Positions 11,946-59,101 of a stretch of 64,000 nucleotides of DNA are shown in pieces. Under the pieces are notes generated by a model. It was not told the origin of the DNA and searched no databases. It worked only from the letters and a program-made list of their open reading frames with translations. The position numbers were made by a program, and so were the translations under genes. Position 1 is the first letter of the stretch. The number at the start of each line of letters is the position of its first letter. Source of the stretch: a virus; the IMG/VR virus record IMGVR_UViG_3300047200_000500, positions 105,622 through 169,621 of that record; one strand, given 5' to 3'.

Positions 11946-11958
11946 TATTAGGTTAGGT

Positions 11959-11971
11959 AAATATAATACAT
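11959..11971 (+). promoter_or_regulatory. AAATATAATA-N3-ATG box, second copy
   Basis: AAATATAATA (11959-11968), then CAT and ATG at 11972. Same sequence and same distance to the start as at the tape measure gene. It lies in the only gap between the two genes. Confidence 0.5.
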
Positions 11972-16658: not shown

Positions 16659-16852
16659 CTTCTGGTGATTTTTTAACAGAGATGGCCGAAGAACCAGAAA
16701 TTAATAAAGCTGGATTAGATCCAGGTTTTGTAGCAATGTTGCAGCGTATGCACGAATATTCTCCAAAAGTACATGAGATGGTTAGGAAATTAAGGCGTGA
16801 AATTTATGTTTCTATAATGCAAGATAAAATTAATGGTAAAATATATATTTAA
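16655..16852 (+). CDS. Small unknown protein (65 aa)
   Basis: Coupled to the deaminase gene by an ATGA overlap and to the next gene by TAATG. The start MTSGDFLTEMAEE resembles that of the 23178 protein (MEATDFLTELFAK), suggesting a short shared N-terminal signal. The rest is a charged helix. No function assigned. Confidence 0.45.
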   Translation: MTSGDFLTEMAEEPEINKAGLDPGFVAMLQRMHEYSPKVHEMVRKLRREIYVSIMQDKINGKIYI

Positions 16853-18279
16853 TGACAATTCATTATACAACAGAAGAGTTTATACAAAAAGCCCAAAAAA
16901 TCCATGGTGATAAATATAATTATTCGTTGGTTGATTATAAAAAATACAATATCAAGATAAAAATAATTTGTCAAATTCATGGAGTGTTTGAACAAAATCC
17001 AGCTTGTCATATTCAAGGTCAAGGATGTCCGATTTGTCATGGATGTAAAAAAAGTAATAATGAACAATTTATACAAAAAGCAAATAAAGTTCATAATAAT
17101 AGGTATGATTATTCAAAAGTTAATTATGTAAGATCTAACTATAAAATTAAAATCATTTGTCCTGTTCATGGTGAATTTGAACAAATTGCTGCAAATCATT
17201 TACGTTATGGATGTCATTTGTGTTATAAATCATATAATTCTAATATAAAGGAATTTATTGATAAAATAGAAAAAATTCACGGTGATAAATATGATTATTC
17301 AAAAGCTGATTATAAAAATTCATTTACTAAAATTAAAATTATTTGTCCTGTTCATGGTGAATTTGAACAAACACCAAACAGACATCTATCTGGTCAGTGT
17401 GGTTGTCCTAAATGTCCGTCAGTGATTTCTTATGCCCAACAAGAACTTATTGATTTTATAAAGGAAGACAAGACTATAAATGATCGTGAAGTTATTAAAC
17501 CAAATGAATTAGATATTTTTATTCCAAGTAAAAATATTGCTATTGAATATCATGGTATTTATTGGCATAGTTATAATAAGTTGGAGTCTAATATAGAAAA
17601 ATATAAACACCACAACAAAGCATCAATTTGTTTTGATAAAGGTATTCAATTAATACAAATTTTTGAAAATGAATGGCTAAATAAGAAAAACATTGTAAAG
17701 TCTATCATTAATGCTAAATTAGGAATTAATAATAAAATATTTGCGCGTAAATGTGAGATTAAAGAATTATCATCCAAGGAATTTAATGAATTTTGTAATA
17801 AAAGCCATATTCAAGGAAAATTAAATTCAGTTATAAAGTTAGGATTGATACATTATGATAGATTAGTTTGTGTCATTGGTTTTAATAGGCATTCGAGGTA
17901 TGATTATGAATGTACTAGATTTTGTAATGAATTAAACGTTAATGTTGTTGGTGGCGCATCAAAGTTATTTAAATATTTTTTAAATAAATGGAAACCTAAT
18001 TCTATTTTATCGTTTGCTGATAGACGATATAGTAATGGTAGATTATATAAAACATTAGGATTTGAATTAATTGGGGTTACTGATCCAGGGTATTTTTATT
18101 TTAAAAATGGTGGTGATATGATATTGTACTCTCGTCAACAGTTTCAGAAACATAAACTTAAAAATAAATTAGATAATTTTAATTCTGATTTATCAGAGGC
18201 TCAAAATATGTTTAATAATAAATATAGAAGACTATGGGACGCAGGGCATTGGAAATTTGTATGGTCAAATATTAAATAG
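16852..18279 (+). CDS. Putative homing endonuclease: three DUF723-like zinc repeats plus EDxHD/Vsr-like nuclease
   Basis: Residues ~6-190 contain three imperfect copies of a ~60-aa unit with pattern 'F..KA..iHgdkYdYs.vdY....KikIiC..HGeFeQ...H....gCp.C', i.e. DUF723-like treble-clef zinc fingers that probably read DNA. Residues ~195-290 look like an EDxHD/Vsr-type nuclease fold (NELDIFIPSKNIAIEYHGIYWHS, then IQIFENEW). The C-terminal ~180 residues are a further conserved module (FARKCEIKELSSKEFNEFCNKSHIQG). Such proteins are known as free-standing mobile nucleases in large phages. It is AT-rich and inserted between coupled genes, fitting an invader. Confidence 0.72.
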   Translation: MTIHYTTEEFIQKAQKIHGDKYNYSLVDYKKYNIKIKIICQIHGVFEQNPACHIQGQGCPICHGCKKSNNEQFIQKANKVHNNRYDYSKVNYVRSNYKIKIICPVHGEFEQIAANHLRYGCHLCYKSYNSNIKEFIDKIEKIHGDKYDYSKADYKNSFTKIKIICPVHGEFEQTPNRHLSGQCGCPKCPSVISYAQQELIDFIKEDKTINDREVIKPNELDIFIPSKNIAIEYHGIYWHSYNKLESNIEKYKHHNKASICFDKGIQLIQIFENEWLNKKNIVKSIINAKLGINNKIFARKCEIKELSSKEFNEFCNKSHIQGKLNSVIKLGLIHYDRLVCVIGFNRHSRYDYECTRFCNELNVNVVGGASKLFKYFLNKWKPNSILSFADRRYSNGRLYKTLGFELIGVTDPGYFYFKNGGDMILYSRQQFQKHKLKNKLDNFNSDLSEAQNMFNNKYRRLWDAGHWKFVWSNIK

Positions 18280-18281
18280 GT

Positions 18282-19010
18282 ATGAAAATATCATCTCTAC
18301 ATGTTTTGTGTGAGGGTTACTCAAGAACATATAAGTTTGGATATGATAATTTTAACATTGATCCAAGACCAAATGTTGTAGCTTTAGGTAGGTGGGTAAA
18401 CCATAAAGGCACTAAGCTTCTTTGTGGAATCAATTTAAATTATCTTTCTGATGATCAAGTATTGGAGCTTCAGAAAAATCTTCAAACAATTCTTGGAGAT
18501 AGAAACCTTAGGCGCAGGGTTAGAAAATTACGTGGATTAATGCCTCAAATATTTGATCGCGCTTATAGAACTTACAATCAAGATCATGTTAAAATTGTTG
18601 CCCCAGGAACTCTTAAATTCTTTAAAGAGCCAAAACCTCAACCTATTAAAGAACCAGTCACTAAGGCTATTGAACCAATAAAAGCTAAAAAAGAATTAAA
18701 GAAGCCAGATGATGTCTCTAAAGATATAAATAAGATCGATAAAGATGAAAGAGGTATTGATTTTGATAAGGAAGAACCAGAACAAGATGATAAAGATATT
18801 CTAAGCAAAGAAAAAAAGGTTGCTTCAAAGGATATTAAACTTCAAAAAGGTGAACCTATTAAACTTGTTGATCCTAGGAAAAAAATTAAAGAACCTATTG
18901 AACCTGATAAAGATGCTAATTTTGGTAATTCAAAACCAGAAATTGTTGAGCCAGAAGATTTAGATTTTGAAGATGGTGAAGAGGATACAGATGAAGGAAT
19001 TCCTAAGTAA
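18282..19010 (+). CDS. Unknown protein with acidic disordered tail (virion-associated?)
   Basis: Residues ~1-110 are a compact basic domain (GRWVNHKGTKLLCGINLNYLSDDQVLELQ ... RNLRRRVRKLRGLMPQIFDRAYRTY). Residues ~115-242 are low complexity, rich in Lys/Glu/Asp/Pro and ending very acidic. The basic domain with an acidic tail suggests a nucleic-acid-binding or head-associated protein. The sequence TAAATAGG sits just before the ATG and again before the next gene's GTG. No family recognised. Confidence 0.5.
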   Translation: MKISSLHVLCEGYSRTYKFGYDNFNIDPRPNVVALGRWVNHKGTKLLCGINLNYLSDDQVLELQKNLQTILGDRNLRRRVRKLRGLMPQIFDRAYRTYNQDHVKIVAPGTLKFFKEPKPQPIKEPVTKAIEPIKAKKELKKPDDVSKDINKIDKDERGIDFDKEEPEQDDKDILSKEKKVASKDIKLQKGEPIKLVDPRKKIKEPIEPDKDANFGNSKPEIVEPEDLDFEDGEEDTDEGIPK

Positions 19011-19017
19011 ATAGGAT

Positions 19018-19707
19018 GTGGTTTACGAAAAAGGCAAGATTCCAGATTGTAGTAATGTAGAAGAGTTAAAGTCTTTTTTTAAAGATCATGAAGATTACAC
19101 CACTCTTGAAATAGCTTTAAGATATAAAATCGCTCCAGGAAGTTTAAGATGTTGGAGAGTTAAAGCTGGCCTTAAATCAAAAACAGCCCATTCTGAATTT
19201 TTGAAGTCACATAAACTGCAAAAAAAACTTATCATTGAACATGTACATGATCCATTAATATGGGATAATAAAGAATGGTTTGAAAATGCTTATTCTAAAT
19301 ATGGAATAATAACAATTTCTAAAATAATAGGTAAAACTATTAGGACTGTTCAAAAAAGATTAGCAAAGTATGAAATTAAGACAAAACTCTGGAAAGATTC
19401 TATAAAAAGTAAAAATCCATATAATAATGAAGCCTGGATAGTTGAACAATATTTTACTAATAAAATTGGTGTTGCTAAAATGGCTAAAATAGCTGGTGTT
19501 AGCATATATACCATGTATGATTGGTTAGTAAGTAAAGGAATTTACCCAAGATCAATAAGCAGGGCTGGTGCTATATATAGATGGCGTATGTTAAAAATTA
19601 AAAAGAAACTAAGATTAGAAAAGTACAATAAAGTATATGGAACAAGCTTTCAGAGTTTTAAAGAAGTTGCTGATGCAAGATCCAAGGATAAAGAAGGTAA
19701 AGTCTGA
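19018..19707 (+). CDS. Helix-turn-helix DNA-binding protein
   Basis: GTG start at 19018 (TAAATAGG lies 2 bases upstream); an overlapping ATG at 19016 is in another frame and soon stops. The 229-aa protein contains repeated HTH-like units: LEIALRYKIAPGSLRCWRVKAGL, TISKIIGKTIRTVQKRLAKYEI and VAKMAKIAGVSIYTMYDWLVSKGI. Several consecutive HTHs with a basic C-terminus suit a small terminase subunit or a DNA-site reader related to homing nucleases; sequence alone does not decide. The next gene starts inside its 3' end. Confidence 0.55.
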   Translation: MVYEKGKIPDCSNVEELKSFFKDHEDYTTLEIALRYKIAPGSLRCWRVKAGLKSKTAHSEFLKSHKLQKKLIIEHVHDPLIWDNKEWFENAYSKYGIITISKIIGKTIRTVQKRLAKYEIKTKLWKDSIKSKNPYNNEAWIVEQYFTNKIGVAKMAKIAGVSIYTMYDWLVSKGIYPRSISRAGAIYRWRMLKIKKKLRLEKYNKVYGTSFQSFKEVADARSKDKEGKV

Positions 19708-22118: not shown

Positions 22119-23174
22119 ATGAAAAAAATTTCCTTAATAAGTGGCTGTACAGGACAAGATGGCTCATATTTAATTGATCATTTATTAAGTTTAGGATATG
22201 TTGTGCATGGTATTATTAGAAGATCATCTTCTTTTAATACGAGTAAAATAGATCATATAATAAATTCAAAAGCACATGGCTCAACATTTTTTATGCATCA
22301 TGGTGATTTAACTGATTCTAATAATATCAATAAATTGGTTTCTGAAATAAAACCAAATGAATTTTATAATTTAGGAGCTATGAGCCATGTTAAAGTTTCA
22401 TTTGAGGTTCCAGAATACACTGCAAATGTTGATGCGCTAGGACCAATGCGTGTTGTTGAAGCTGTTAGAATGTTTTCACCAGAAACTAAGGTTTACAATG
22501 CGGCTACAAGTGAAATGTTTGGTGGTCAAATTGATGAAATGCCAAAAAATGGATTTGATGAAGAATGCAAATTTCATCCTAGATCGCCATATGGTGTTGC
22601 CAAATTGTATGGACATTGGATATGCAGGAACTATAAAGAGGCATACAATTTGTTTGTTTGTAATGGTATATTATTTAATCATTCTTCACCTCGTAGAGGG
22701 GAAACTTTTTTAACTAGAAAAGTTACTTTATGGTGCAGTAATAATTTCCATAATTTAAAAAATAATCTTGAAGTTAGGCCATTAGAAATAGGCAATTTAA
22801 ATGCAATGCGTGATGAAGGTCATGCAAAAGATTACGTAAAAGCAATGCACATGATGTTACAATGTGATAAACCAAATGATTATGTTGTTTCTATGGGTGA
22901 AACTCATTCAGTTAGGGAATGGATTGAAAAATGTTTTAAATATATGGGTCTTAATTTAAGATGGGAAGGAAATGGTATAAAAGAAATAGGGTTAGTCAAT
23001 GATAAAATCGCGGTTGTTGTTAATCCAAAATATTTTAGACCGTCAGAAGTTGATATTCTACTTGGTAATTCTAGTAAAATAAGATCTGAACTTAAATGGA
23101 AACCAACATTTTCATTTGATGATTTGGTAAATGATATGATGGAACATGATATAAGTAATTATAATAAAATTTAA
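22119..23174 (+). CDS. gmd: GDP-mannose 4,6-dehydratase
   Basis: Converts GDP-D-mannose to GDP-4-keto-6-deoxy-D-mannose with bound NADP, the branch point to GDP-fucose, rhamnose, perosamine and colitose. It is a full-length (351 aa) short-chain dehydrogenase: cofactor loop SGCTGQDGSYL (residues 8-18), the RRSSSFNT segment typical of Gmd, the NLGAMSHVKVSFE region, AATSEMFGG, and the catalytic Y158xxxK162 in SPYGVAKLYG followed by FNHSSPRRGETF. GAGGTG precedes the ATG. No GDP-fucose synthase is in the window, but a DegT-type aminotransferase is (38577-39659), favouring perosamine. Confidence 0.93.
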   Translation: MKKISLISGCTGQDGSYLIDHLLSLGYVVHGIIRRSSSFNTSKIDHIINSKAHGSTFFMHHGDLTDSNNINKLVSEIKPNEFYNLGAMSHVKVSFEVPEYTANVDALGPMRVVEAVRMFSPETKVYNAATSEMFGGQIDEMPKNGFDEECKFHPRSPYGVAKLYGHWICRNYKEAYNLFVCNGILFNHSSPRRGETFLTRKVTLWCSNNFHNLKNNLEVRPLEIGNLNAMRDEGHAKDYVKAMHMMLQCDKPNDYVVSMGETHSVREWIEKCFKYMGLNLRWEGNGIKEIGLVNDKIAVVVNPKYFRPSEVDILLGNSSKIRSELKWKPTFSFDDLVNDMMEHDISNYNKI

Positions 23175-37973: not shown

Positions 37974-38585
37974 ATGAAAATAGATGTAACTAGGTTTTGT
38001 GGTCTTTCTAGAAGAGATGATTTTCAAAATTGGCTGAAATCTATTTCTAATGAATATTATAATGAATTAATTTATTTTCTTAGACTTGGAAAATCATGTG
38101 GTAGCAATAAAGAAAAAATGGAAGAAATATATAGTAAATTGGTCAAGGATAAAAAATCAAATTTGATGATCGATTTTTTAATTAAAAATTATCCACATAT
38201 GATAATTTATGATAAGAATGATGCCACAAGTAAAATTGTAGAAGTTCCCCAAAATGATAAACAAATGGTTTTAAGTAATGATAAACAAATGGTTTTAAGT
38301 AATGATGAATTAAATCATCATAAAGTATTCCAAAAATATAAACCTGGGTTATTATTAATACCACATCAAATGATTTTTATTGATGATAATGGGCGTTCTT
38401 TAGAAAACAGAATTATAGAGTTCACAAGAACTAAAATCCAAACTGATTATGTGATTTTACAAGGCCCAAAATTTTACCATGGTTACATAGAATATTTTGA
38501 AAAAGAATTTGCATCAGAGGCTTTTAAATTACCAAGCCACAATAGACCAATATTTATTTATAAGAAAAATAATAATTTAAGATAA
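37974..38585 (+). CDS. Unknown 203-aa protein with an 8-aa duplication
   Basis: Has an exact tandem duplication of an 8-residue unit (NDKQMVLS) at ~residues 94-109, encoded by a 24-bp repeat, much like the one in 5410-6027. No family recognised. It is flanked by a collagen-like fibre gene and the convergent DegT gene, whose 3' end overlaps it by 9 bases. The C-terminal region (GPKFYHGYIEYF) is conserved-looking but unassigned. Confidence 0.5.
   Translation: MKIDVTRFCGLSRRDDFQNWLKSISNEYYNELIYFLRLGKSCGSNKEKMEEIYSKLVKDKKSNLMIDFLIKNYPHMIIYDKNDATSKIVEVPQNDKQMVLSNDKQMVLSNDELNHHKVFQKYKPGLLLIPHQMIFIDDNGRSLENRIIEFTRTKIQTDYVILQGPKFYHGYIEYFEKEFASEAFKLPSHNRPIFIYKKNNNLR
38253..38300 (+). repeat. 24-bp exact tandem duplication (2 copies) inside a gene
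   Basis: Units 38253-38276 and 38277-38300 are identical and add 8 in-frame residues. A partial third copy (AATGAT) follows. It is the second exact 24-bp duplication in the window. Confidence 0.9.
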
Positions 38586-39659
38586 TGCTTTGGATATTCT
38601 TGTAACCTCGTCAATATCAAGACCTGGACCGCCTGGCAGTGTAATGCCTTGTCTCCATAATTTTACTGCTATTGGAAAATCATTTTCATTGTATTCGTGA
38701 TGCTCCCAAGGCGGCATTAGAGGAATTGGCGGAAATATTGGTCTTGAATCATATCCCAATGAATTTAATATTTTAGAAGCAGTATTGTAATAATCATAGT
38801 CAGATTCGTCTAATATTGAGAACATCCACCATGAATTATGACCACCATTCGGTGATTTTTGAAATTTAAATTTATCACCAAGTAATGAAATATAAGTATC
38901 TGCGATTGATGTTAATTTTTTAGATGTTTCATCTATCCTGTTAATCTGTGAATTTGCTAATGCCGCTTGCATCCCCGTTATTCTATAATTATACCCTATA
39001 TCACAATGCCAGAATCTTTTTCCTGGTTGTTGCGCTTGACCCCTGAGCAATTTACATTTATCAGCTATTTTATCATCATTTGTTAATATCATACCTCCTT
39101 CAGCACTAGAAATTAATTTATTTCCATACATACTAAATACTGATACTTCACCAAAACTACCGATGTTTTTTGAATCTACTTTAGCAGTTAAAGCTTCACA
39201 TCCATCTTCAATTATTTTGAACCCATATTTATTGGACATCTCTATTAAACGAACCATATCGACTGGGTTACCATAATTGTGAACAGCCACGACGGCATCA
39301 ATTTTCATCATTTTACATTTATTATCTAAAATGTCCAAGTTCATATTCCATGAATTGATATCGGCATCAATAAAAATTGGAATTGATCTAACATATTCAA
39401 CAGAAAATGCTACTGCTGCAAAACAGCATGCTGGAATGGCTATTTTTTTATTTTCAAGATTGGTACTTAATAATGCAAGATGAAGTGCTGTAGTTCCATT
39501 AGAACAACTAATAGCATGTTTTCTATCAGTGAGTTTTTTAAAATTATTTTCAAGCTTCTCAACTTCTGGACTGGCTTGTGTAATGAATTGAGATTTGACT
39601 ATATCATAAACAGCCTTTGCGTCATCATCAGTAAAAATTTGATTATAGACTGGAATCAT
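38577..39659 (-). CDS. DegT/DnrJ/EryC1-type sugar aminotransferase (GDP-perosamine synthase-like)
   Basis: A full-length (360 aa) PLP enzyme that moves an amino group to the keto carbon of a nucleotide sugar. The PLP-binding lysine is K181 in SMYGNKLISSAEGGM; other family marks are SCSNGTTALHLAL, AVHNYGNPVD, KIIEDGCEALTAK (E151-D152) and GYNYRITGMQAAL. Paired with Gmd, the likely reaction is GDP-4-keto-6-deoxy-mannose to GDP-perosamine. An ArnB/WecE-type substrate cannot be excluded by eye. Its ATG overlaps the ATG of the divergent gene within CATG (39657-39660). Confidence 0.85.
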   Translation of the reverse strand: MIPVYNQIFTDDDAKAVYDIVKSQFITQASPEVEKLENNFKKLTDRKHAISCSNGTTALHLALLSTNLENKKIAIPACCFAAVAFSVEYVRSIPIFIDADINSWNMNLDILDNKCKMMKIDAVVAVHNYGNPVDMVRLIEMSNKYGFKIIEDGCEALTAKVDSKNIGSFGEVSVFSMYGNKLISSAEGGMILTNDDKIADKCKLLRGQAQQPGKRFWHCDIGYNYRITGMQAALANSQINRIDETSKKLTSIADTYISLLGDKFKFQKSPNGGHNSWWMFSILDESDYDYYNTASKILNSLGYDSRPIFPPIPLMPPWEHHEYNENDFPIAVKLWRQGITLPGGPGLDIDEVTRISKALS

Positions 39660-40633: not shown

Positions 40634-41273
40634 TTTTGACCCATTTAAACCTCTGAATTCTGAAGATTTTAAGCCTTCTGATCTCCCAACTGGAAATAAA
40701 GAAGACAAAATCAATCCAAAAGACGTTGGAGTTGATAATAGTGTTGATTTAAAAGATGACGAAGATGGAGAAGATGCAGATACTTCACTAGATGATTTTG
40801 AATCAGAACTAAATGATCAGTTTTCTCCTGATGTCCCAAGCGGTGATGAATCATTAAGTTTACCGGAACCTACTAGTATACAGACTCCAATTGCACCTGA
40901 AAAACAAATTAAATGGACTGTTATTCCTACTGATAATAACGAATTAAAATCACAACATGTTAATGGCTTTACGTTAAGAGCTAGACCATTGAGTGCAAAG
41001 AAAGATGAAAAGATTAAATATATAACTCAATTATACAAAGGAAACAAAATTTTAGAAAAAGGTGTTATTTGGATTGACTCCACTAAAGATCCAATAACAT
41101 TTTTGCAAAATGTAGCCGATAGGATCCTTAATAGGATGGGCTTAACATCCAATGAAATAGAAGAACCTAAAAGTGAATTTACGAATGAAGAACCTATAGA
41201 ATCAGATTTACCAAAGGAAGAAGAAAAAGGCGATCTTGGTAATGAAATGGATCAAGTGCTGGGGTCAATTTAA
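40626..41273 (+). CDS. Acidic unknown protein (215 aa)
   Basis: The ATG at 40626 follows AAGGAA and is preferred; the frame also opens upstream at 40578. The N-terminal ~100 residues are disordered and strongly acidic (LKDDEDGEDADTSLDDFESEL); residues ~105-180 form a small folded domain (HVNGFTLRARPLSAKKDEKIKY); the C-terminus is acidic again. It could be a scaffold or DNA-mimic type protein; not shown. It overlaps the previous gene by 8 bases. Confidence 0.5.
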   Translation: MSDFDPFKPLNSEDFKPSDLPTGNKEDKINPKDVGVDNSVDLKDDEDGEDADTSLDDFESELNDQFSPDVPSGDESLSLPEPTSIQTPIAPEKQIKWTVIPTDNNELKSQHVNGFTLRARPLSAKKDEKIKYITQLYKGNKILEKGVIWIDSTKDPITFLQNVADRILNRMGLTSNEIEEPKSEFTNEEPIESDLPKEEEKGDLGNEMDQVLGSI

Positions 41274-42506
41274 ATCAGATTCTATCTCTAATAAATCTCC
41301 CCAATATTCCTGATTTTTGAAATTTTTACAATTTTGTGACCCGACAATGGCCCAAATAACGGAATAATCTCTTTTATCTGGTATTGTATCTTGCCCGTCG
41401 CTAAGAATTATGTTGACATTTGCGACTAGATTATTATGTTCAATATAATCAAGCACACAACTAAAATCAGTACCTCCACGACCAGTTACAGCTACAGTTC
41501 TCCAGTCTCCTTTTTTATATTCTCTAACTTTATGAACTGCACTATCAAATTCGATTAATGTAATTTTAAATTTCTGGGAAATTGATTCTATTTCACCAAA
41601 TACTACTTCTAATATTTTAGTGTACATTGATCCACTAGTGTCAATCATGATAGTTAATTTATTGCCACCATGAGAAGATGTCCCTTTTATTCCAAATTGT
41701 TGATTTTTTCTGTTTAATCTAGCAAAAGTTTTTCTTTTTTGTCCTATTGACCTACCTATTAAATTTCTTAATAAATGAGCGTAATGAATTTTTGATGATT
41801 GAATTTGTTTTATAAATTCTTCTAAGTGTCCAGGTGGATTACCAGCAGCCTTGCTAGTTGAATTAACTATTTCTTTTACTGTTTGTCTAATTTCATCTTT
41901 TGATGCATCACTTTCTGACCACACTTCATGATTATCATGTAGTTCTACGTGTAATATTTTACCGTTTTTTAATATTAATATCCACCCCTTTAATCCATTA
42001 TCGTTATTTATTTCTTGGATTCTTGAGTTATCTATAATCCATTTTGCAACTTCTTCACTTGAATGATCTTTTTCAAAAAAATCTAAATCTATACCGGACC
42101 ATAATTCATTATCTTTATCACACATGTTGCTACCAGGCATAAACATTCCACATTCTGGAAGATGATCTATACTTTTATTAGATTTATGACCATTAATTAA
42201 CCAATCTTGAGCTATGTTATTGATTACATGATGTTCGTCGGTTGGGCCAATTGACCTACTTGGGTGCAGCCTGACCACATGCTCTATTTCATGGATTATT
42301 ACAGCTATCATTTCATCTATTGTTAAGCTATTGCAAAATTCTGTGTTATAATAACAGTTTACTCTTCCACCTTTTTTAAAAGCTACTCCAACTGTTTTTA
42401 TATCTGTTCGCTCTATCCAATCTATTCTTGTACAAAATGTGCCATACCATGGATGTAAAATTTGTATCTTACATCTTGCATCCATTAATTTGTCTATTTT
42501 ATCCAT
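41265..42506 (-). CDS. VWA domain protein with N-terminal zincin (DUF2201-like)
   Basis: Residues ~65-80 contain IIHEIEHVVRLH, an HExxH zinc-peptidase motif (H72, E73, H76) in the DUF2201/VWA-like metallopeptidase style. Residues ~283-400 are a von Willebrand A domain with an intact MIDAS: DTSGS (D289, S291, S293), GRGGTDF (T346) and ILSDG (D370). Such proteins pair with MoxR-type AAA ATPases as chaperone or remodelling systems; the partner is the next gene, whose stop overlaps this start (ATGA-like). In the phage it might remodel or cut a host or virion complex. Target unknown. Confidence 0.78.
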   Translation of the reverse strand: MDKIDKLMDARCKIQILHPWYGTFCTRIDWIERTDIKTVGVAFKKGGRVNCYYNTEFCNSLTIDEMIAVIIHEIEHVVRLHPSRSIGPTDEHHVINNIAQDWLINGHKSNKSIDHLPECGMFMPGSNMCDKDNELWSGIDLDFFEKDHSSEEVAKWIIDNSRIQEINNDNGLKGWILILKNGKILHVELHDNHEVWSESDASKDEIRQTVKEIVNSTSKAAGNPPGHLEEFIKQIQSSKIHYAHLLRNLIGRSIGQKRKTFARLNRKNQQFGIKGTSSHGGNKLTIMIDTSGSMYTKILEVVFGEIESISQKFKITLIEFDSAVHKVREYKKGDWRTVAVTGRGGTDFSCVLDYIEHNNLVANVNIILSDGQDTIPDKRDYSVIWAIVGSQNCKNFKNQEYWGDLLEIESDLN

Positions 42507-43867
42507 TATTTATTAAGCTTTATTTCAGATCCCCAAGCAGTAATTTGAATCTCTCTTGATAATACCGGATCTTTGGTCAGTGCATTATACCAAGTGCGAA
42601 TTTTTTGTTGTTTACTGAGTATTCTCTGGATTGATGGATTAATTAATGCTGCACCCTTTAGACTACTTTCAAGTTCGTTATTTGTTAAACCTCTACAGAA
42701 CCCAACAGCAAGATCTTTATAATTATTGTTATTGACCATCCATTTACAAAAAGACAAGACATTGTTTATTTGTTTTTCTTGTGGATCTTTTATGGATGTG
42801 GCAATATTGACCACACCAAGCATCAATCCTTGCATCTCTGGACGCTTCATTGTGTGAAGAATTTGGATTATTTTTGTACTTGCACCATTTTCGATAATGT
42901 CTCTTGGATAGAGTTCTGCTGCCCAATTCTTATAAGCATTTGTCACTGCTATTCCTATTAATCCTTGTAATAATTCAGTTCTGATTCTGTCCTTTTGTTC
43001 ATCATCCTTGAATATATCAGTATTGTTTTTTATTGAATTTTCAATTTTTGATACGAATTCCCACGATCTAGGATTTGGTTCAATTATTAATTGTTCAGAA
43101 CCATCTTCTGTTTGAATTAAATGTTCATTACTACCAGCGCAAAATTGAGTTATTTTATCAGTTATTCCGTCATCAATATCTGTAGATTTCATCCACTTCA
43201 TCCAATCAGTAATATATTCTTCATTTACCTGTATATTAACATGACACCAACGTGATGTAAAAGCGGCATCTGATACAAATGTGTTTGTCCTATATCTTGA
43301 TCCAGACGGATTACCAGCACCAATTATTAGGATTTTAGATGGTAGTTCATAGCCACCTGTTTTGCGATCTAATATTAATTCAAATAAAGCCTGTAAAACA
43401 TCATCTTCGCCTCTATTAACTTCATCTAAAAATAAAATCCCTTGATGATATTTAACTTCACCTTTAAACGGCCAATGTTCATCTGTTGTTTCTTTACCAT
43501 GGACTTCACAACATTTTAAATAATATGGAGATTTGTCTGGGATTATATCAGAATTTTTGCCCCATGTATTACCCTTTTCATCTATGAAATTTCCATGTGG
43601 AAGATCAACTGGTGGAAGATATATGAATTTATCACCATCTGCTTTAGGAAGACCTCTTAATTCAGAGGCTTCCATTTGAGCAGCACGCATATCTTTGCAA
43701 AAGAATGGCACTGAACAATTGCCTTTATCATCACAAAAATGAAATCTATTTTTACAAAATTTTTTGACGCCATTGCTTTTACCAACACCTCTTGGACCCC
43801 AAATAAACAATGGAATATTGGCAACATGGCAAATAGAAATAGCTGTATCTAATTCTGAATATATCAT
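42506..43867 (-). CDS. MoxR-family AAA+ ATPase
   Basis: 453 aa with Walker A GPRGVGKS (residues 24-31), Walker B GILFLDEVNR (D148, E149), a GNPSGSR segment near sensor 1 and an arginine-rich Arg-finger region (FTSRW). Both Walker motifs look intact, so it should hydrolyse ATP. MoxR ATPases act with VWA proteins to insert cofactors or remodel complexes; the VWA-zincin protein is encoded directly after it. An unusual Cys/His insertion follows Walker A (FCDDKGNCSVPFFC). Confidence 0.82.
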   Translation of the reverse strand: MIYSELDTAISICHVANIPLFIWGPRGVGKSNGVKKFCKNRFHFCDDKGNCSVPFFCKDMRAAQMEASELRGLPKADGDKFIYLPPVDLPHGNFIDEKGNTWGKNSDIIPDKSPYYLKCCEVHGKETTDEHWPFKGEVKYHQGILFLDEVNRGEDDVLQALFELILDRKTGGYELPSKILIIGAGNPSGSRYRTNTFVSDAAFTSRWCHVNIQVNEEYITDWMKWMKSTDIDDGITDKITQFCAGSNEHLIQTEDGSEQLIIEPNPRSWEFVSKIENSIKNNTDIFKDDEQKDRIRTELLQGLIGIAVTNAYKNWAAELYPRDIIENGASTKIIQILHTMKRPEMQGLMLGVVNIATSIKDPQEKQINNVLSFCKWMVNNNNYKDLAVGFCRGLTNNELESSLKGAALINPSIQRILSKQQKIRTWYNALTKDPVLSREIQITAWGSEIKLNK

Positions 43868-44392: not shown

Positions 44393-45007
44393 ATGTTACC
44401 ATTTATAGCTCCAGATAAGCCCATAAGGACAAGTGATGATTTTCTTATTGATTTAGATGTTGAAGAATGGTCCTGTGAAATGAAACTTGATGGTTACAGA
44501 ATGGAAATTAGCAAACATGATGGAATAATAATTGCTCGTAGTCGCCATAATGAAATTTTAAAAATTGATGGTTCTTTCATTGATTATTTCAACAGTCTTT
44601 TAAGTGAAGGAAGTGCCATTGACACTGAATGGATTAATCATGATAGAATAAAAGCAATTAATACTGTGATGAAATTCAATCTTCCTTTAGTTGAGTGTAT
44701 AGGCATACATGATGTGACTTGGCTAAACGGTAAGTATCTTGGTAATATTTCATTAAAAGAACGACGTAATTGTGATATTTACAAAAAATTACAGACAGCT
44801 TCCATGAATAATATAATAGATAATTTTAAAGTATTTAAAATTCCAATGTTGTCTGATGATAATACAATGATTGATTTTTATAACATGCAAAAAAGTATTA
44901 AAATTAGCGAAGGGATTGTTATTAAAAAATGGAATTCAAAATTGGTTGGAAATAGATCACAATCTGCTAAAAATCCAAGCTGGTACAAGATAAAGTACCG
45001 CAACTGA
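44393..45007 (+). CDS. Minimal ATP-dependent ligase-like nucleotidyltransferase
   Basis: 204 aa containing the adenylation-domain motifs: motif I EMKLDGYR (K31-D33-G34; K31 would carry AMP), the SRHNE region (motif Ia/III-like), IDTEWI, motif IV SEGIVIKKW and motif V SWYKIKYR. No C-terminal OB fold is present, so it is shorter than standard DNA ligases (about 300 aa or more). It may be a trimmed DNA ligase, an RNA ligase or an adenylyltransferase domain working with a partner. The next gene (sigma factor) starts 17 bases downstream. Confidence 0.7.
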   Translation: MLPFIAPDKPIRTSDDFLIDLDVEEWSCEMKLDGYRMEISKHDGIIIARSRHNEILKIDGSFIDYFNSLLSEGSAIDTEWINHDRIKAINTVMKFNLPLVECIGIHDVTWLNGKYLGNISLKERRNCDIYKKLQTASMNNIIDNFKVFKIPMLSDDNTMIDFYNMQKSIKISEGIVIKKWNSKLVGNRSQSAKNPSWYKIKYRN

Positions 45008-45024: not shown

Positions 45025-45840
45025 ATGAGCCATTCTGTTAAACCAGTTTTATGTGCGTCTATTAGACCACATCTTAATTATCCTGACGAAGTTTTATTCG
45101 CAGAACTTAAGGGAACTGTAAAGTCAATTTGGAACACAGTGAGGGGTGGAAGCCCAAAATATGATTATGATGATGCCCTATCTGATGCTTGGATAGGGTA
45201 TACCAAAGCTAAAGAACATGATAATCTTCCTCCTTCTATTGCTGGCGAAATAATGGAATGTCCCATATGCGGGCACAAAATGCATATGCCGGTGACAATG
45301 GATGAGGATAAAAATGCAGATCCATCTAGAGATAGGTCATTTAATTTACAATGCGAATCGTGTAATCATGAATGGGTAAAAGAAATTAAGAAAACACAAT
45401 TTACCACTTGTGTCTATCATTATATTCGTGGAGAAATACAACGTGGTGCTCGTGAGAGTCGTCGTTGCGGGATTCAGAAAATAAAAAAGCAAGATATGAA
45501 TGGTCACAAAGTGGATCCATCAATCATAAGTATAGATGTCTTCTCACAGACTTCAGATAATGTCTGTGATGCCTTAAGTGTTGGTCAAAGTGTTCATGTT
45601 ACTGGAATTGGTATTGAAGTAAAGAAAAATGTTCATAGGGCAGTAAGTAAACTGCCACCCCGTCAATGTGAAGTAATATCAAGGATGTTTGGATTAGAAT
45701 ACAATAATGAGATATTAGAACCAATGTCTCAGGCCCAAGTGGCTGATCATATAGGGATATCAAGGCAACGTATTTGCGCAATTATTAAAGGTTCATTAGC
45801 CAGGCTACACAAAGAATTGGAGAAATCTTATGAAGCTTGA
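45025..45840 (+). CDS. Sigma-70-family factor with zinc-ribbon insertion
   Basis: Directs RNA polymerase to phage promoters. Region 2-like sequence is split: DYDDALSDAWIGYTKAK (residues ~47-63), then a zinc ribbon with CPIC (C79, C82) and CESC (C110, C113), then region 2 continues with TCVYHYIRGEIQRGARES (~128-145). Region 4 at ~203-265 contains KLPPRQCEVISRMFGL and the HTH MSQAQVADHIGISRQRICAIIKG. The zinc-ribbon insertion is unusual. It may serve late transcription and read the AT-rich boxes before virion genes; that link is inference. Confidence 0.8.
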   Translation: MSHSVKPVLCASIRPHLNYPDEVLFAELKGTVKSIWNTVRGGSPKYDYDDALSDAWIGYTKAKEHDNLPPSIAGEIMECPICGHKMHMPVTMDEDKNADPSRDRSFNLQCESCNHEWVKEIKKTQFTTCVYHYIRGEIQRGARESRRCGIQKIKKQDMNGHKVDPSIISIDVFSQTSDNVCDALSVGQSVHVTGIGIEVKKNVHRAVSKLPPRQCEVISRMFGLEYNNEILEPMSQAQVADHIGISRQRICAIIKGSLARLHKELEKSYEA

Positions 45841-46096
45841 TAAATTTGTTTTTGATAAAGCATATGATATTGTCATCATAACATACAGTGACAATACAAA
45901 AGCATCAATTGCTTTTTTTCTTGACAAACATGAAACTTTACATTGGTATGAATACAAGGGTGTTTGTGTCGAAAAAGTAATTAAAGAAATATTTGAACCA
46001 AAATTTAAATTTAAAGCATTAAGTAGGCACGACAATTCATCTTCATTTAAAAATGCACAAAGGGTTTCTCAAAAATTTATCAAGAATAAAACTTGA
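45830..46096 (+). CDS. Small unknown protein (88 aa)
   Basis: Overlaps the end of the sigma gene by 11 bases. Mixed alpha/beta with a KFKALSRHDNSSSF segment; no recognised family. It may be coexpressed with the sigma factor. Confidence 0.45.
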   Translation: MKLDKFVFDKAYDIVIITYSDNTKASIAFFLDKHETLHWYEYKGVCVEKVIKEIFEPKFKFKALSRHDNSSSFKNAQRVSQKFIKNKT

Positions 46097-46544
46097 TCAA
46101 TTAGGCGTATTAAAAGATTGTACTGCCGTTTTAGGTAAAAGTGAATACGGATCTATATATAAATTGTTTAATGGTGAATCAGATAATTGGTGGTGGAGAT
46201 CTATTAGTAAGAAAGAATTAACTCCTGATTATTATGCGATAGTTTTATTTATTAGCCATATTGATTATGGTCGGCGTATGTCGATTAAAACTTATTTAAA
46301 TTTTGTTCAAAATAGCGTCAATAATTCTAAGACACCGGTATCTTCAACTATATGCGGAATAATGATTGGTAATATTGTATTTGTAAAGGATGTCTATAAT
46401 AACCAAACTTATAAATTTAATTTTGACATTAATACAGAAGATAATGTAACAATTAAATCAATTGGATCTAGCTTTGATAATGTATATTTTAGAGGAATTT
46501 TTAATTTAAAAAATTGTCCGTTTTATTGCCCAATTTCGTGTTAG
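46053..46544 (+). CDS. Unknown 163-aa protein
   Basis: Overlaps the previous gene by 44 bases. The protein contains GESDNWWWRSISKKEL and later beta strands; ends with a Cys-rich PFYCPISC tail. No recognised family and no clear Shine-Dalgarno, so confidence is modest. Confidence 0.42.
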   Translation: MHKGFLKNLSRIKLDQLGVLKDCTAVLGKSEYGSIYKLFNGESDNWWWRSISKKELTPDYYAIVLFISHIDYGRRMSIKTYLNFVQNSVNNSKTPVSSTICGIMIGNIVFVKDVYNNQTYKFNFDINTEDNVTIKSIGSSFDNVYFRGIFNLKNCPFYCPISC

Positions 46545-46549
46545 TTCGA

Positions 46550-46567
46550 CAAATATATAAAGTAACA
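46550..46567 (+). promoter_or_regulatory. CAAATATATAA box before the gpI-like giant gene
   Basis: CAAATATATAA (46550-46560) followed by AGTAACA and the ATG at 46568. Same sequence class as 33341; supports this ATG as the true start. Confidence 0.4.
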
Positions 46568-49500
46568 ATGGCTACATCAAATAATCCCTATTTTAGGTTG
46601 TTTCCCTTAAATAACGCTCGCACTGGCTTTAAGCCATATGCGATGCCAGTTTTATATATAGAACGTTATAGATTAACTGAAGATGGAATGGCTATAAGTG
46701 ATTCAGAAACTCAAAAAATAAGATATTATGTAGTTAATGCCCCTGATGTCGCTAAGGTTGCTGGACCATTTAATACTAATTTAAGAGTTCCAAATATTTC
46801 ATTGTATGAAATAGATTTAACTGTACAGCAATTGAATGATAAAATATTAAAAATAAATGGTTATCAATTCTACCGTAAAACTATTGACAGTAAAGGTGTT
46901 GTAACATATACTCCAATTGACTTTTCTGAAGCTGAAACTGGAGACTATTTTGATTATAGGTTGGAATCCAATAATGTAGGTGATAAAGTAGAATATTTTA
47001 AAGATGCGTATTACTATGATCTTTCAGGTGTAGAAATTACGGTTGATGGTCTTCCAAAACCAAATAGATATTTCTTCATTTGGGAAGCCACTTTCTTTAG
47101 AAGAATTTCTACTTTAAATGGCAATTTGAAATGTGTTGGTACTGATCTGGGGATGTCAAATGAAATATTAGAAGTTAATCATCCTGGTGAAGTACATCAC
47201 GCAATGTGGAGAGGTACTCCATCGCTTTATTTTAATTATGAAGGATATAAAGAATCAACTGACCCTACATTGGAATTTTATAGACCATTCGCTGACTTAT
47301 TACAAGACATATTTGATGAACAAGCACTTTTGGATGGTATCAATCGTATAGATACTGTTCCCATTGCTTTTATACCTTATTTGGCTTATCTTATAGGGTG
47401 GGATTTACCAAATTATCCAGGTGTGACAGATAATCTTAGAAGAAAAATTCTTAAGCGTGCTGTTCATTTACAAAAATTGAAAGGATCAAAGAGAGCAATA
47501 AGTGAATTATTTGAAATGTTTGGTTTTACTGTTAATATTATCAATTTATGGGCTGATAAACAAGGTGATAAACTTCTTAGTGCTGGTAATGGTTTGGAAA
47601 CCTTATTGACTGTACAGGTTGATCAACTTCTTTCAAATTATAATGCTATAGGGTTTGGTATTGATTATCCAATACCATTAACTTTTTTACCAAATAAAAA
47701 TGTACAAATAGTCTTATATGCTTACCAAGTTAAGCAGGGTACCAATGACTATCAAAAATTGGTTGATTTTTCAAATAAGCTTTCATCAAATCTTGAGTTC
47801 TATAATGACGATACAATAAGATATGATGTCAACAATACTATAACAACTAAATCTATAAATGAATTAAATGCATCATTCACTAATGATGGTTTAATTGGAT
47901 CCACTAAAGTATTGATTGGTGGAATGAGTTATCAGATTTATGGCAGAAAAATATTGAATTCATCTAATATTTCTTTTGATAAAAATGAAAATACAATAAT
48001 TTTAAACTTTGACCATGAGTTAAGTGTTGATGGTGGTCAATTATTTGTATTTCCTATTTATGAAAGAACAAAATTAATAATTCCAAATGAATTATTAAAC
48101 ACCAAGTCTAGTAGATTCGATGCTGAGATAGCAAATAAGGATAATAGTCCAATAGATTATAATTTATTGATCTACATGTTGTCGTTTATTTTTAAACTTA
48201 AATCATTTCATTCTTTATTAAGAAAACTGATTTATACAATTGATATTTATGAAGTTTATAACTTAATTGATTTCTGTGTTTCTGAAAATGATTTATTAAA
48301 GCCAGGAACTAGTTCTGGTGATTTACAAGTTCCACCAGCTATAATACCTACTGGTGAGACATGTGATGATTCTAATCGCAATTTTAAAGATTCTGACATT
48401 AATTTAAAAAATATAATTGTGCAGGGTTTAGAGGCAGAATTTCAAGGCTGGAAAAATCAAAGAACTACAGATAGCGATGGTAAAATAATAGGTGATAATT
48501 GTGAATTAAATAAAGAAGGGCAAGATAAAGTACTGGTTGATAATACTACTGATTTTGATCAAAAACCAGACAATAGACCAACTTATTGCATTAATCTTCC
48601 ATCAAAACCAGATTTTTGTTATAAAGGAAGAGTGACAGCCGACGAAGTAACTGTTACCATAGCAGAATTAAAAGAGATTTATCAGAATGTTCCATGCGGA
48701 CCGAAACTTGGATATGGATTCTATTGGGAAGAGAAATCTCGTGTAAACTTTGATCATCAAAATGTTGGTTTTTTAAATTCAAGGTTGAAATTTGTTGATA
48801 ATAAAGATGTAACATTACATTATAGTGCATATCCATATTATGATAAAGATGTTCAAAAATCTCAAAATACTTTAGCTTTAAGCCCATCGTCATTAAATAT
48901 TGAGAAAGAACATCTCGGATTTCCTTCTCACAGATTTTTATCAATGGGATATCTTGCCAATGATTATGATTATACATCTTTAAATATATCATATGGATAT
49001 GATCTTGTTCGCAAACGACCATGGGACGAAGAATTTCAATGTGGATATTATTTAAACACGCTTAATGCCACTCTATCAACAATAAGCGGAAAATCTGTTA
49101 GAATATTCTATAATGGAAGTTCATTTGATATAGAAGAAATGTATACTGGATCAATGATCAAAAATGGATTCATGACTTATAATGATGCTGAATCATATAT
49201 TAATTCAAATAATATGTTCGTTGAACAAGATTTAACATGGTCTAATAGTGATTTGATTTATATTGGAAATGGAATTGAATCAGAAATTGATTCTCTAAGT
49301 GATCATACAATAACAACTGGTGATGACAGATTAATAACTCATAATGTGTATCAACATACTGAAACAAATCCATATGTCGTAGATGATTTCACAATAAATT
49401 CTTCATCAGTTATATCAACAAGTAATGATTATGGCCCAATATTTAGAAGTGTATGTAAAAGTTCTAATGAAGATTTTTCTGGTGGCTATCCGTCAATTAG

Positions 49501-50449
49501 CAACACCACTACAATTAGTGGAAATTACAGGTTTGATACAACTGATCCAAGTGGTTTACTTGATAGACCATTAATAGCTTCTGGAGTTGGTTTACCTCTA
49601 AATCCATTAAAAACCAGTGCAAGATTTTTTGAAAATTCAATGATATTTGTTAGTAATAATGATTCTAATTATCAATATGTTGTACCATATAGACTTGATT
49701 GTAGTTGCATGATAAACGTTTGTGATCAGACTAATATGACTGGTGATTATACAGAATGCAAACCAGAATCTTTGTATGATCAAAATGGCAATCTTGATGT
49801 ATCTCCTGATAAAATCGAATTTGATTTTACAGCTTTATTAATTGAGAAAATATCATTATGTTCACGTTTGTCAAATCATGAAATTAAAAATTTATTCTGT
49901 ATTAAGGATGATTGTTCATTACCAGAAACAGGATCATTCAGATATAAAGATGATTATCAAATAATTTATGAATTGTCCTGGATAACAATGAACGACATAT
50001 TAGATTTAATATTTGTAACTAAAGATCCTAGAACTCCTGGTGCCAATTCTGATGAATTTATAAAAGATGGTAGAGTTTATGTAAAAGGGATAATCACAAC
50101 CACAAGACAAATAATTAGAAATGGTACAATTATAGAAGCAGAAGGTGTTGAACAGGTTGTAGATTATTTCCAAATTAATGTTAAATGTGGTGATACAGCA
50201 TTTGAAAATCCTTTCTCTTATGGTATAGATTGTGCTATTCATGATGACCTTGAAATTGTTGTGTCTGATGGTCCAAGATGGATGGATCCAGAAGATGTAG
50301 GCCCTGGTGGAGTAACATTCATAGAATCTACTGTTGACCCATGGAAGAGAGGTACTGTATGGGCAGATGTTGATTCTGATACATCTGGGATAACTTACCC
50401 GACGCCAAACCCATTAATGTGGATAGATTTTGTTAGTAACGGATTGTAA
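46568..50449 (+). CDS. Very large gpI-like baseplate wedge / tail fibre adaptor protein
   Basis: The frame opens at 46514 but ATG 46568 is preferred. The 1293-aa product has a P2 gpI-type 'tail protein I' region at ~236-330: DLLQDIFDEQALLDG, IPYLAYLIGWDLPNYPG, LRRKILKRAVHLQKLKGSKR and AISELFEMFGFTV. In myophages this family joins the baseplate wedge to the tail fibres. The remaining ~950 residues are beta-rich with many Cys and Tyr/Asn; the protein is far longer than the ~180 aa of P2 gpI, so it is an expanded, multi-domain wedge component. Confidence 0.75.
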   Translation: MATSNNPYFRLFPLNNARTGFKPYAMPVLYIERYRLTEDGMAISDSETQKIRYYVVNAPDVAKVAGPFNTNLRVPNISLYEIDLTVQQLNDKILKINGYQFYRKTIDSKGVVTYTPIDFSEAETGDYFDYRLESNNVGDKVEYFKDAYYYDLSGVEITVDGLPKPNRYFFIWEATFFRRISTLNGNLKCVGTDLGMSNEILEVNHPGEVHHAMWRGTPSLYFNYEGYKESTDPTLEFYRPFADLLQDIFDEQALLDGINRIDTVPIAFIPYLAYLIGWDLPNYPGVTDNLRRKILKRAVHLQKLKGSKRAISELFEMFGFTVNIINLWADKQGDKLLSAGNGLETLLTVQVDQLLSNYNAIGFGIDYPIPLTFLPNKNVQIVLYAYQVKQGTNDYQKLVDFSNKLSSNLEFYNDDTIRYDVNNTITTKSINELNASFTNDGLIGSTKVLIGGMSYQIYGRKILNSSNISFDKNENTIILNFDHELSVDGGQLFVFPIYERTKLIIPNELLNTKSSRFDAEIANKDNSPIDYNLLIYMLSFIFKLKSFHSLLRKLIYTIDIYEVYNLIDFCVSENDLLKPGTSSGDLQVPPAIIPTGETCDDSNRNFKDSDINLKNIIVQGLEAEFQGWKNQRTTDSDGKIIGDNCELNKEGQDKVLVDNTTDFDQKPDNRPTYCINLPSKPDFCYKGRVTADEVTVTIAELKEIYQNVPCGPKLGYGFYWEEKSRVNFDHQNVGFLNSRLKFVDNKDVTLHYSAYPYYDKDVQKSQNTLALSPSSLNIEKEHLGFPSHRFLSMGYLANDYDYTSLNISYGYDLVRKRPWDEEFQCGYYLNTLNATLSTISGKSVRIFYNGSSFDIEEMYTGSMIKNGFMTYNDAESYINSNNMFVEQDLTWSNSDLIYIGNGIESEIDSLSDHTITTGDDRLITHNVYQHTETNPYVVDDFTINSSSVISTSNDYGPIFRSVCKSSNEDFSGGYPSISNTTTISGNYRFDTTDPSGLLDRPLIASGVGLPLNPLKTSARFFENSMIFVSNNDSNYQYVVPYRLDCSCMINVCDQTNMTGDYTECKPESLYDQNGNLDVSPDKIEFDFTALLIEKISLCSRLSNHEIKNLFCIKDDCSLPETGSFRYKDDYQIIYELSWITMNDILDLIFVTKDPRTPGANSDEFIKDGRVYVKGIITTTRQIIRNGTIIEAEGVEQVVDYFQINVKCGDTAFENPFSYGIDCAIHDDLEIVVSDGPRWMDPEDVGPGGVTFIESTVDPWKRGTVWADVDSDTSGITYPTPNPLMWIDFVSNGL

Positions 50450-50457
50450 ATATATCA
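50447..50457 (+). promoter_or_regulatory. TAAATATATCA box
   Basis: Located 18 bases before the ATG at 50476, overlapping the end of the preceding gene. The same AAATATATCA occurs at 23421-23430. Confidence 0.35.
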
Positions 50458-52864: not shown

Positions 52865-53797
52865 ATGCCAACAGGCATAAAAATAAATTGGCCAATATAT
52901 GATCAATTATTAATTGATAACGTTTCAAAATATAATATTTTAGAATTTACTAGAAAATTCTTACCACATATTTCTCCAACAGCTGTTGCTAAAAGGATTA
53001 AAAAATTAAATTTAAAACCGTTAAAATTTGAATTTAATGATGAAATAAGAGAAAGAGTAAAAAATGGAGTAACTAGTAATTATTTTGATGAAAAAACTGA
53101 TAAATTGTTACTTGATAATATCAAGTCAATGTCAATTAAAGAATTATCAAGATTGACTGGATACGATAAAACAGCAATATGGCGTAGACTTAAAGAAATT
53201 AATTATATTCATGATAAAAATGATGTTTATAATAAACACAGTATCGCAGTTAAATTAGCATTATCAAATCCAGAAGTTAAAAGAAAATTATCAGTTGCTT
53301 CTAAGGGTAAAGTATTAAGCGAAGAAACTAAATTAAAAATAAGTCAATATATGACTGGTAGTGGTAATCATCAATATGGTAAACCAAGAACTAAAGAAGA
53401 AAATGAAAAAGTATCTTTAAAAATACATGAATTAATGTCACTTGGTAAAATTAATAATAAATGTTATATTAATGGTTGGCATCAATCTAGTAAATCTGGT
53501 AATGTCCACTATAGATCATCTTATGAATTGGCTTATTATAAAAAACTTGATGCCGACGATAATGTAATTAATTATAAGGTTGAGCCACTATTAATTAAAT
53601 ATTTTTACAAAAATTGTCTAAAATATTATAAACCAGATCTATTAGTTAATAGAAACAGTGGTCCAACACTGGAAGAAATTAAACCATTAATATTTGTTCA
53701 TTGTAAAAGAAATCAAGCAAAATTTAAATATGCCAGTGATTATGCGACAAGGTGCAACCTAGAATTTAAAGTCATAACTGAAAAAGACATATTTTAA
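52865..53797 (+). CDS. Putative homing endonuclease: HTH, NUMOD3, PD-(D/E)XK-like nuclease
   Basis: The N-terminal ~120 residues hold two HTH-like units (SPTAVAKRIKKLNL and SIKELSRLTGYDKTAIWRRLKE). Residues ~130-195 match NUMOD3-type DNA-binding repeats (KGKVLSEETKLKISQYMTG, GKPRTKEENEKVS). The C-terminal ~100 residues resemble a PD-(D/E)XK nuclease (YRSSYELAYYKKLD, then YYKPDLLV...LEEIKP). The combination with NUMOD3 marks a free-standing mobile nuclease. It lies between two tail genes with no intron seen. Confidence 0.7.
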   Translation: MPTGIKINWPIYDQLLIDNVSKYNILEFTRKFLPHISPTAVAKRIKKLNLKPLKFEFNDEIRERVKNGVTSNYFDEKTDKLLLDNIKSMSIKELSRLTGYDKTAIWRRLKEINYIHDKNDVYNKHSIAVKLALSNPEVKRKLSVASKGKVLSEETKLKISQYMTGSGNHQYGKPRTKEENEKVSLKIHELMSLGKINNKCYINGWHQSSKSGNVHYRSSYELAYYKKLDADDNVINYKVEPLLIKYFYKNCLKYYKPDLLVNRNSGPTLEEIKPLIFVHCKRNQAKFKYASDYATRCNLEFKVITEKDIF

Positions 53798-56084: not shown

Positions 56085-56118
56085 TATCTATTTACCATTA
56101 AATTAGATGCAATGGTAC

Positions 56119-58154: not shown

Positions 58155-58162
58155 ATTAATAT

Positions 58163-59101
58163 TTACTTATAATATTTTAATTTGTAATTCATTCCAGGGA
58201 TATTAATAGCATAATCATGTATATAGTTTAATATATTATCTATTAATTCTTTATTAATGACTATATAATATTTATTGCATGAAGAATGCAATTGTAATCT
58301 TGGTTTTTTTGTATTAAATTTATCAGATAACCATTCTGATATTAATTCGGTATGTTCAGTTGAAAAACCTTGAGTTGATAATGATCCACCACATTTCCCA
58401 AAATAACCATCATCAAAAAACCAAATTGCTACACTAATGTCATTTAATTTATTCAAAAAATTAAGATTTGGAGATTTAATATTATTAATATATAATTCTC
58501 TATGAATATTATTAATGTATTCATTTACCATTGTGGTAAAATTCATGCACTCTTTTCCATACATTCTTTCATCGTACTCATAAATTTTTGGTTTTGTATT
58601 TATTATAGTTTTTAATTTTCCATATTTCCATTTTAAATATTTATATTGTTTTGGACCATGAACAAACCTCATTCTACAATTATTTGATGATGTTCTTGAA
58701 ATTGTTGCATCTCCAAGGATTGCTCCATTTAAAATTTGTTTTTGTTCTTCTGTTAATTCAATATTTAATTTTCTATTATTAAATTTTAAATTATTCTTAT
58801 GCATCAATGAAATTACTGTACTATATGTTAAATTTAACATATTAGAAATTTCTGTTGGTGATTTTTTATCATTAAACAATGAAATTATTTCTTTTATGTT
58901 ATAGTCATACTTTAATGCGCCGCATTTTATAGAACAATACTTTGCAGTCCTGTAACCCAAAAATTCTTCATTACATCTTTTACATATTTTTATTCTTCTT
59001 CTTCCTTTATTTTTACAATTTGTGCAATATTTAGTAAATGGTAGTGAACTGTCAAATGTTATATCACATACTTTGCATTTAATTTTGAAATTTGTGTTCA
59101 T
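58163..59101 (-). CDS. LAGLIDADG homing endonuclease with zinc fingers and HTH
   Basis: Two LAGLIDADG-type motifs: LNGAILGDATIS (~residue 125) and SVAIWFFDDGYFGK (~225). The N-terminus has two zinc-finger pairs (CKVC...CTNC and CKRC...CSIKC) and an HTH-like unit (SPTEISNMLNLTYSTVISLM). It is the second LAGLIDADG protein in the window but shares little with 21192-22112 beyond the core, so they are independent invaders. It sits divergently to the RarA-like gene over 31 bases. Confidence 0.82.
   Translation of the reverse strand: MNTNFKIKCKVCDITFDSSLPFTKYCTNCKNKGRRRIKICKRCNEEFLGYRTAKYCSIKCGALKYDYNIKEIISLFNDKKSPTEISNMLNLTYSTVISLMHKNNLKFNNRKLNIELTEEQKQILNGAILGDATISRTSSNNCRMRFVHGPKQYKYLKWKYGKLKTIINTKPKIYEYDERMYGKECMNFTTMVNEYINNIHRELYINNIKSPNLNFLNKLNDISVAIWFFDDGYFGKCGGSLSTQGFSTEHTELISEWLSDKFNTKKPRLQLHSSCNKYYIVINKELIDNILNYIHDYAINIPGMNYKLKYYK

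Follow-up and report, generated by a model that had tools for sequence, protein, structure and literature searches.

A phage sigma70-family protein with a zinc-ribbon-like insert at the loop L3 position of region 2

A distant T4-like phage encodes a 271-aa sigma70-family protein whose region 2 appears to be divided by an insert of ~50-60 residues that resembles a C4 zinc ribbon and that lies, judged by alignment, at the equivalent of loop L3. On balance we consider it probable that this protein is an extra sigma70-type initiation factor acting on the host RNA polymerase (RNAP), with the L3 ribbon adding a contact to the -10 element or to RNAP. It is a single instance in the searches made, and the architecture looks new. 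In ECF sigmas L3 is regarded as a short, swappable specificity loop; a folded domain in it, if true, would mean that a sigma can accept a domain insertion in the surface with which it reads the -10 element, and the L3 ribbon would offer a natural way of testing how much promoter specificity can be extended there.

Gene and record

The viral record comprises 169,621 bases, and the window analysed here is the 64,000-base stretch at its bases 105622-169621 (Table 1). The record encodes a T4-like portal and terminase and a contractile sheath, with a terminase that has ~30% identity to the nearest GenBank terminases. The sigma gene is an open frame whose ATG start is preceded by GAGGAA, a plausible ribosome site, and it lies in a plus-strand tandem run that leads from the ligase-domain gene through the sigma gene and small ORFs to the baseplate gene. 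Both the frame and the four cysteines C79/C82 and C110/C113 are as the preliminary description had claimed. The base composition of the insert equals that of the rest of the gene and thus gives no sign of recent ribbon acquisition.

Table 1 Features of the sigma gene, its neighbourhood and the start-adjacent boxes, in window positions
Feature	Position	Strand	Basis or remark
Ligase nucleotidyltransferase-domain protein gene, 17 nt upstream of the sigma gene	44393-45007	+	PF01068 3.4e-9
271-aa sigma70-family protein gene, insert in region 2	45025-45840	+	ORF; PF04545 4.8e-9; phrog_351 1.3e-13
Region 2.1-2.2 half, residues 22-65, predicted RNAP-binding helices, up to KAKEH	45088-45219	+	phrog_351/PF04542 only after excision
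Insert in loop L3 equivalent, residues 66-124, C4 zinc-ribbon-like	45220-45396	+	excision, four-strand model, lookalikes
First putative zinc knuckle, CPIC (C79, C82)	45259-45270	+	sequence
Second putative zinc knuckle, CESC (C110, C113)	45352-45363	+	sequence
Region 2.3-2.4 half, residues 125-145, QFTTCVYHYIRGEIQRGARES, predicted -10 recognition helix	45397-45459	+	excised alignment, hhalign to sigma70 profile
Sigma region 4, residues 207-261 (helix-turn-helix, -35/beta-flap)	45643-45807	+	PF04545 4.8e-9
88-aa ORF overlapping the sigma gene 3' end, same tandem run	45830-46096	+	no family match
Baseplate/tail protein (Tail_P2_I-like), end of the same gene run	46514-50449	+	PF09684 1.9e-8
GTAAATA boxes	5397-5403, 11957-11963, 19007-19013, 50446-50452	+	others in L010-L014
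GTAAATA boxes	56089-56095, 58160-58166	-	others in L010-L014

Two other groups of genes in the window fall outside this run. An adjacent pair at window 41265-43867 (minus strand) encodes a MoxR-type ATPase and a DUF2201/VWA metallopeptidase-like protein, and the PHROG label of the latter, 'HNH endonuclease', is at odds with its Pfam match. The phage also carries sugar-modifying genes, namely a sugar-nucleotide epimerase and a DegT aminotransferase (window 22119-23174 and 38577-39659).

Sigma regions and the insert site

The preliminary description called the signatures of regions 2 and 4 clear. This holds for region 4, for which PF04545 matches with 36 bits against a cut-off of 24.1 and is the best family (PF08281, the ECF-type region 4, reaches E 0.16, below cut-off), but it was too strong for region 2, which a Pfam search of the intact protein does not detect. 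Region 3 (Sigma70_r3) likewise gives no match in the Pfam search, and the best PHROG is phrog_351, a phage sigma family.

Region 2 is recovered when the insert is excised in silico. On a sigma-70 region 2 profile made from natural sigmas, and with excision positions scanned, the score rises from -0.8 bits for the intact protein to 7.1 bits at the best excision (residues 66-114), whereas control excisions of similar length elsewhere in the protein reach at most 2.9 bits and 100 shuffled-flank proteins at most 4.7 bits; as a check on the profile, its parent alignment retrieves solved sigma factors. The phrog_351 match moves from residues 122-268 of the intact protein to 22-215 of the excised one, spanning regions 2-4, with 51.5 versus 56.9 bits (E 1.3e-13 versus 2.9e-15), and it takes the excision for hhalign to align a sigma70 profile across regions 2-4. 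PF04542 gives a full-length match once the insert is removed (E=0.1, 12.9 bits, below the Pfam cut-off), and it scores T4 gp55 alike (0.087). Together with the lower scores of the controls, we read these recovered region 2 matches as good support for the claim that two CxxC pairs split region 2, although none of the scores is strong by itself.

The insert sits between the region 2.2 helix, which ends in KAKEH, and the 2.3/2.4 helix, a position that corresponds by alignment to loop L3. A full-length single-sequence model of the protein is poor (pLDDT 40); with that low confidence it places helices at residues 21-39 and 48-65. The 2.3/2.4 helix reads QFTTCVYHYIRGEIQR and keeps a YIRGEIxR pattern. 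Since region 2 is weak and interrupted and the protein is a single orphan copy, it might be a sigma-like DNA-binding protein that has degenerated or been repurposed and has lost the ability to initiate transcription. We regard this as improbable: the frame is open with a good start, region 4 scores above its cut-off, both halves of region 2 are kept with the insert exactly in the loop, and the -10 recognition helix has retained its pattern.

Fold of the insert

The 271-aa protein contains 10 cysteines, and 0.8% of its shuffles give two CxxC pairs 10-45 residues apart; shuffles with a CPxCG-like first knuckle and a second CxxC pair make up 0.02%. Folded alone, the insert is modelled as four strands around the knuckles, with a mean pLDDT of 65 and about 78 at the cysteine core, and the strand pattern at the knuckles appears in both the full-length model and that of the insert alone. 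Lookalikes of the insert model are the zinc ribbons of ZitP, LysW and NrdR, with weak Z scores of 2.4-3.1 over 35-45 residues, and the solved structures that align best are mainly C4 zinc ribbons, S27e included, at Z about 2-3. Foldseek matches are weak (E at least 0.5), and among viral models Foldseek retrieved no sigma. The insert thus resembles, in its models, a C4 zinc-ribbon-like module with two CxxC knuckles on paired beta hairpins, the fold likeness being weak, and C79, C82, C110 and C113 would be expected to bind zinc. ZitP, LysW, NrdR and S27e share this arrangement of two CxxC knuckles on beta hairpins, but they are stand-alone or terminal domains and none lies within a sigma region 2. 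No convincing second copy of the ribbon was found within the record.

Zinc ribbons often dock on polymerases, as in TFB/TFIIB, and PF05129 (Elf1, an elongation-factor ribbon) has a weak similarity to the insert, with E 0.0024, below cut-off. The ribbon could accordingly be a protein-docking or structural module: bound to RNAP (at the beta lobe or clamp, for example) or to a phage partner, it would stabilise the holoenzyme and hardly affect which promoter sequences are chosen. We hold this to be possible but rather unlikely, given that the L3 location points to DNA and that the sub-threshold Elf1 match may reflect only a generic ribbon.

The cysteines might instead form a redox or metal switch that gates sigma activity. 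Cysteine-gated sigmas do exist: the CorE/CorE2 sigmas of Myxococcus have a metal-sensing C-terminal cysteine-rich domain (CRD) and a CXC linker motif (PMC8999054). The 271-aa sigma, with its 10 cysteines, shares with these CorE-like ECF sigmas an intrinsic cysteine module, but it has neither the C-terminal CRD nor the CXC motif and carries a C4 ribbon inside region 2 instead. Its spacing and fold are like those of a structural C4 ribbon (CPxCG...CxxC) and not of a labile CRD, the location in the protein differs, and there is no known reason why a lytic phage should sense metals. A switch of this kind therefore seems very unlikely.

Loop L3 and the proposed role

In ECF sigmas, the flipped -11 'master' base of the -10 element is received by loop L3, which forms its pocket and acts as a modular specificity determinant (PMC6372665). 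The gp55 of phage Moby carries a short insert in the same loop, so the site tolerates insertion. The 271-aa sigma shares with ECF sigmas the presence of regions 2 and 4 without a detectable region 3, but its region 4 is of the PF04545 type and theirs of the PF08281 type. In the literature searched we did not meet an ECF member with a domain insert in L3, nor, among open-access papers, a sigma whose region 2 contains a zinc ribbon.

As an extra initiation factor, the protein would load on the host RNAP, with region 2.1-2.2 at the beta' clamp helices and region 4 at the beta flap/-35, and would guide the enzyme to some of the phage promoters. Since in ECF sigmas L3 accommodates the flipped -11 base, a ribbon at this position would border the melting -10 element. 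There it would most likely supply new contacts, or substitute for existing ones, with the non-template strand of the -10/discriminator or with RNAP close by, and such contacts may alter promoter choice or open-complex stability. The earlier suggestion that a zinc ribbon here could contact promoter DNA or RNAP is structurally plausible given the loop L3 position. A bolder version, in which the ribbon directly reads promoter DNA as a metal-stabilised module and serves a class of promoters that does not resemble the known -10 elements, in a phage transcription cascade of three sigmas, we put forward as a tentative and rather doubtful possibility.

Homologue searches

The preliminary description had proposed looking for homologues with the same insertion, and none came to light in GenBank phages, IMG/VR or GTDB contigs. 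Searches of GenBank phages by tblastn, with the whole protein (E 0.01 and 10) and with residues 18-155 alone, returned no homologue with the insert. The same was true of IMG/VR scans with the whole protein, with two-sequence alignments, with region 4 alone and with the neighbouring MoxR and baseplate genes, and of GTDB contigs queried with residues 42-152 and TerL, although both scans depend on pattern matches of 7 or 8 residues and so overlook relatives that have diverged. A whole search of 42 TerL-related or sigma-bearing records likewise gave no insert-bearing homologue, and our claim consequently stays at a single instance. The human-gut sequences that match region 4 are sporulation sigmas of the SigE/SigK kind, and they lack the insert.

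The phrog_351 phage sigmas (for example, AUR83089.1 of Vibrio phage 1.031.O, 263 aa) have regions 2 and 4 and a similar size, and their region 4 has, over its best stretch, about 35% identity to that of the 271-aa sigma. They differ in having a short region 2.2-2.3 loop and no zinc ribbon.

Late genes and other sigma-like proteins

The sequence GTAAATA occurs 7-30 bases before the start codon of 17 genes against 1.4 expected, and it is the only enriched start-adjacent box found. The distance from box to start is often 11-16 bases, too near for a usual leader, so that the boxes could be late promoters of the near-leaderless kind or, alternatively, a signal for the start of translation. They precede the genes for a gp55-like protein, the portal and the sheath and are absent before the ribbon-sigma operon, where a scan for sigma70-type promoters scored below shuffles. 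A gapped two-box motif search for ribbon sigma promoters found none.

The gp55-like protein is a late-sigma candidate encoded at G000:84944-87019 (= L014:4944-7019) and interrupted by an intein of 431 aa that contains a LAGLIDADG domain. Its joined exteins and the intein-free sister copy (L017) show likeness to sigma region 2 (hhalign E 1.5e-4), and its N terminus resembles that of gp55 (KPKNHYFDN / KPKYNYVNN; NHYxDN-like). The C-terminal tail, DFFYIDHDQ, is hydrophobic-acidic and akin to the T4 clamp-binding tail LDFLYEAND (PMC2988020). The gene directly follows a UvsW-like helicase gene, and three other T4-like phages, Moby, S-RSM4 and ACG-2014d, also have uvsW near gene 55. Because the whole-length gp55 profile matches weakly (24 columns, E 0.015), 'gp55-like' denotes a candidate orthologue only, and because a search for a gp45 clamp (PF09116) found none, the link to a clamp is drawn from the tail.

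T4 gp55 lacks region 4, and its C terminus binds the sliding clamp (PMC2988020, PMC7892883). Like the 271-aa sigma it is a sigma region 2 homologue of a T4-like phage, but it has no ribbon. The 271-aa sigma has no match to phrog_234 (the gp55 family), with hhalign to a gp55 alignment at E 0.3, and a clamp-binding hydrophobic-acidic tail is absent from it; it ends in KELEKSYEA, and region 4 is present.

The preliminary description had joined the ribbon sigma and the start-adjacent boxes into a distinct late transcription system, in which the 271-aa protein would be the phage late sigma and the boxes its promoters. The boxes are real, and the sigma gene shares its tandem run with the baseplate gene. 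Against this stand the separate gp55-like gene, with its region 2 similarity, N terminus, tail and uvsW synteny; the placement of the boxes before the gp55-like, portal and sheath genes and not at the ribbon-sigma operon; and region 4, which would predict a -35 box where no two-box motif was found. The combined late system is not supported, and we judge it improbable. From the genes that the boxes precede, and from their absence at the ribbon-sigma operon, we infer that they are better assigned to the gp55-like protein. Late genes are probably served by this separate sigma, and the ribbon sigma is probably not the late sigma.

A third sigma-like protein, of 679 aa (G000:80801-82840 = L014:801-2840), has 24% identity to the 271-aa sigma, with region 4 (PF04545 8.4e-7), a weak region 2 near the N terminus and a long C-terminal extension; a copy is present in the sister contig too (L113). 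With three apparent sigma-like factors, one of them intein-split, the phage is a possible system for studying promoter division among a T4-like phage's own sigmas. The intein of the gp55-like gene interrupts region 2 and is missing from the copy on the sister contig (L017, L018); its splicing could gate late transcription. Besides this intein, several homing-endonuclease-like genes (HNH, NUMOD3) occur at window 16852-18279, 19018-19707 and 52865-53797.
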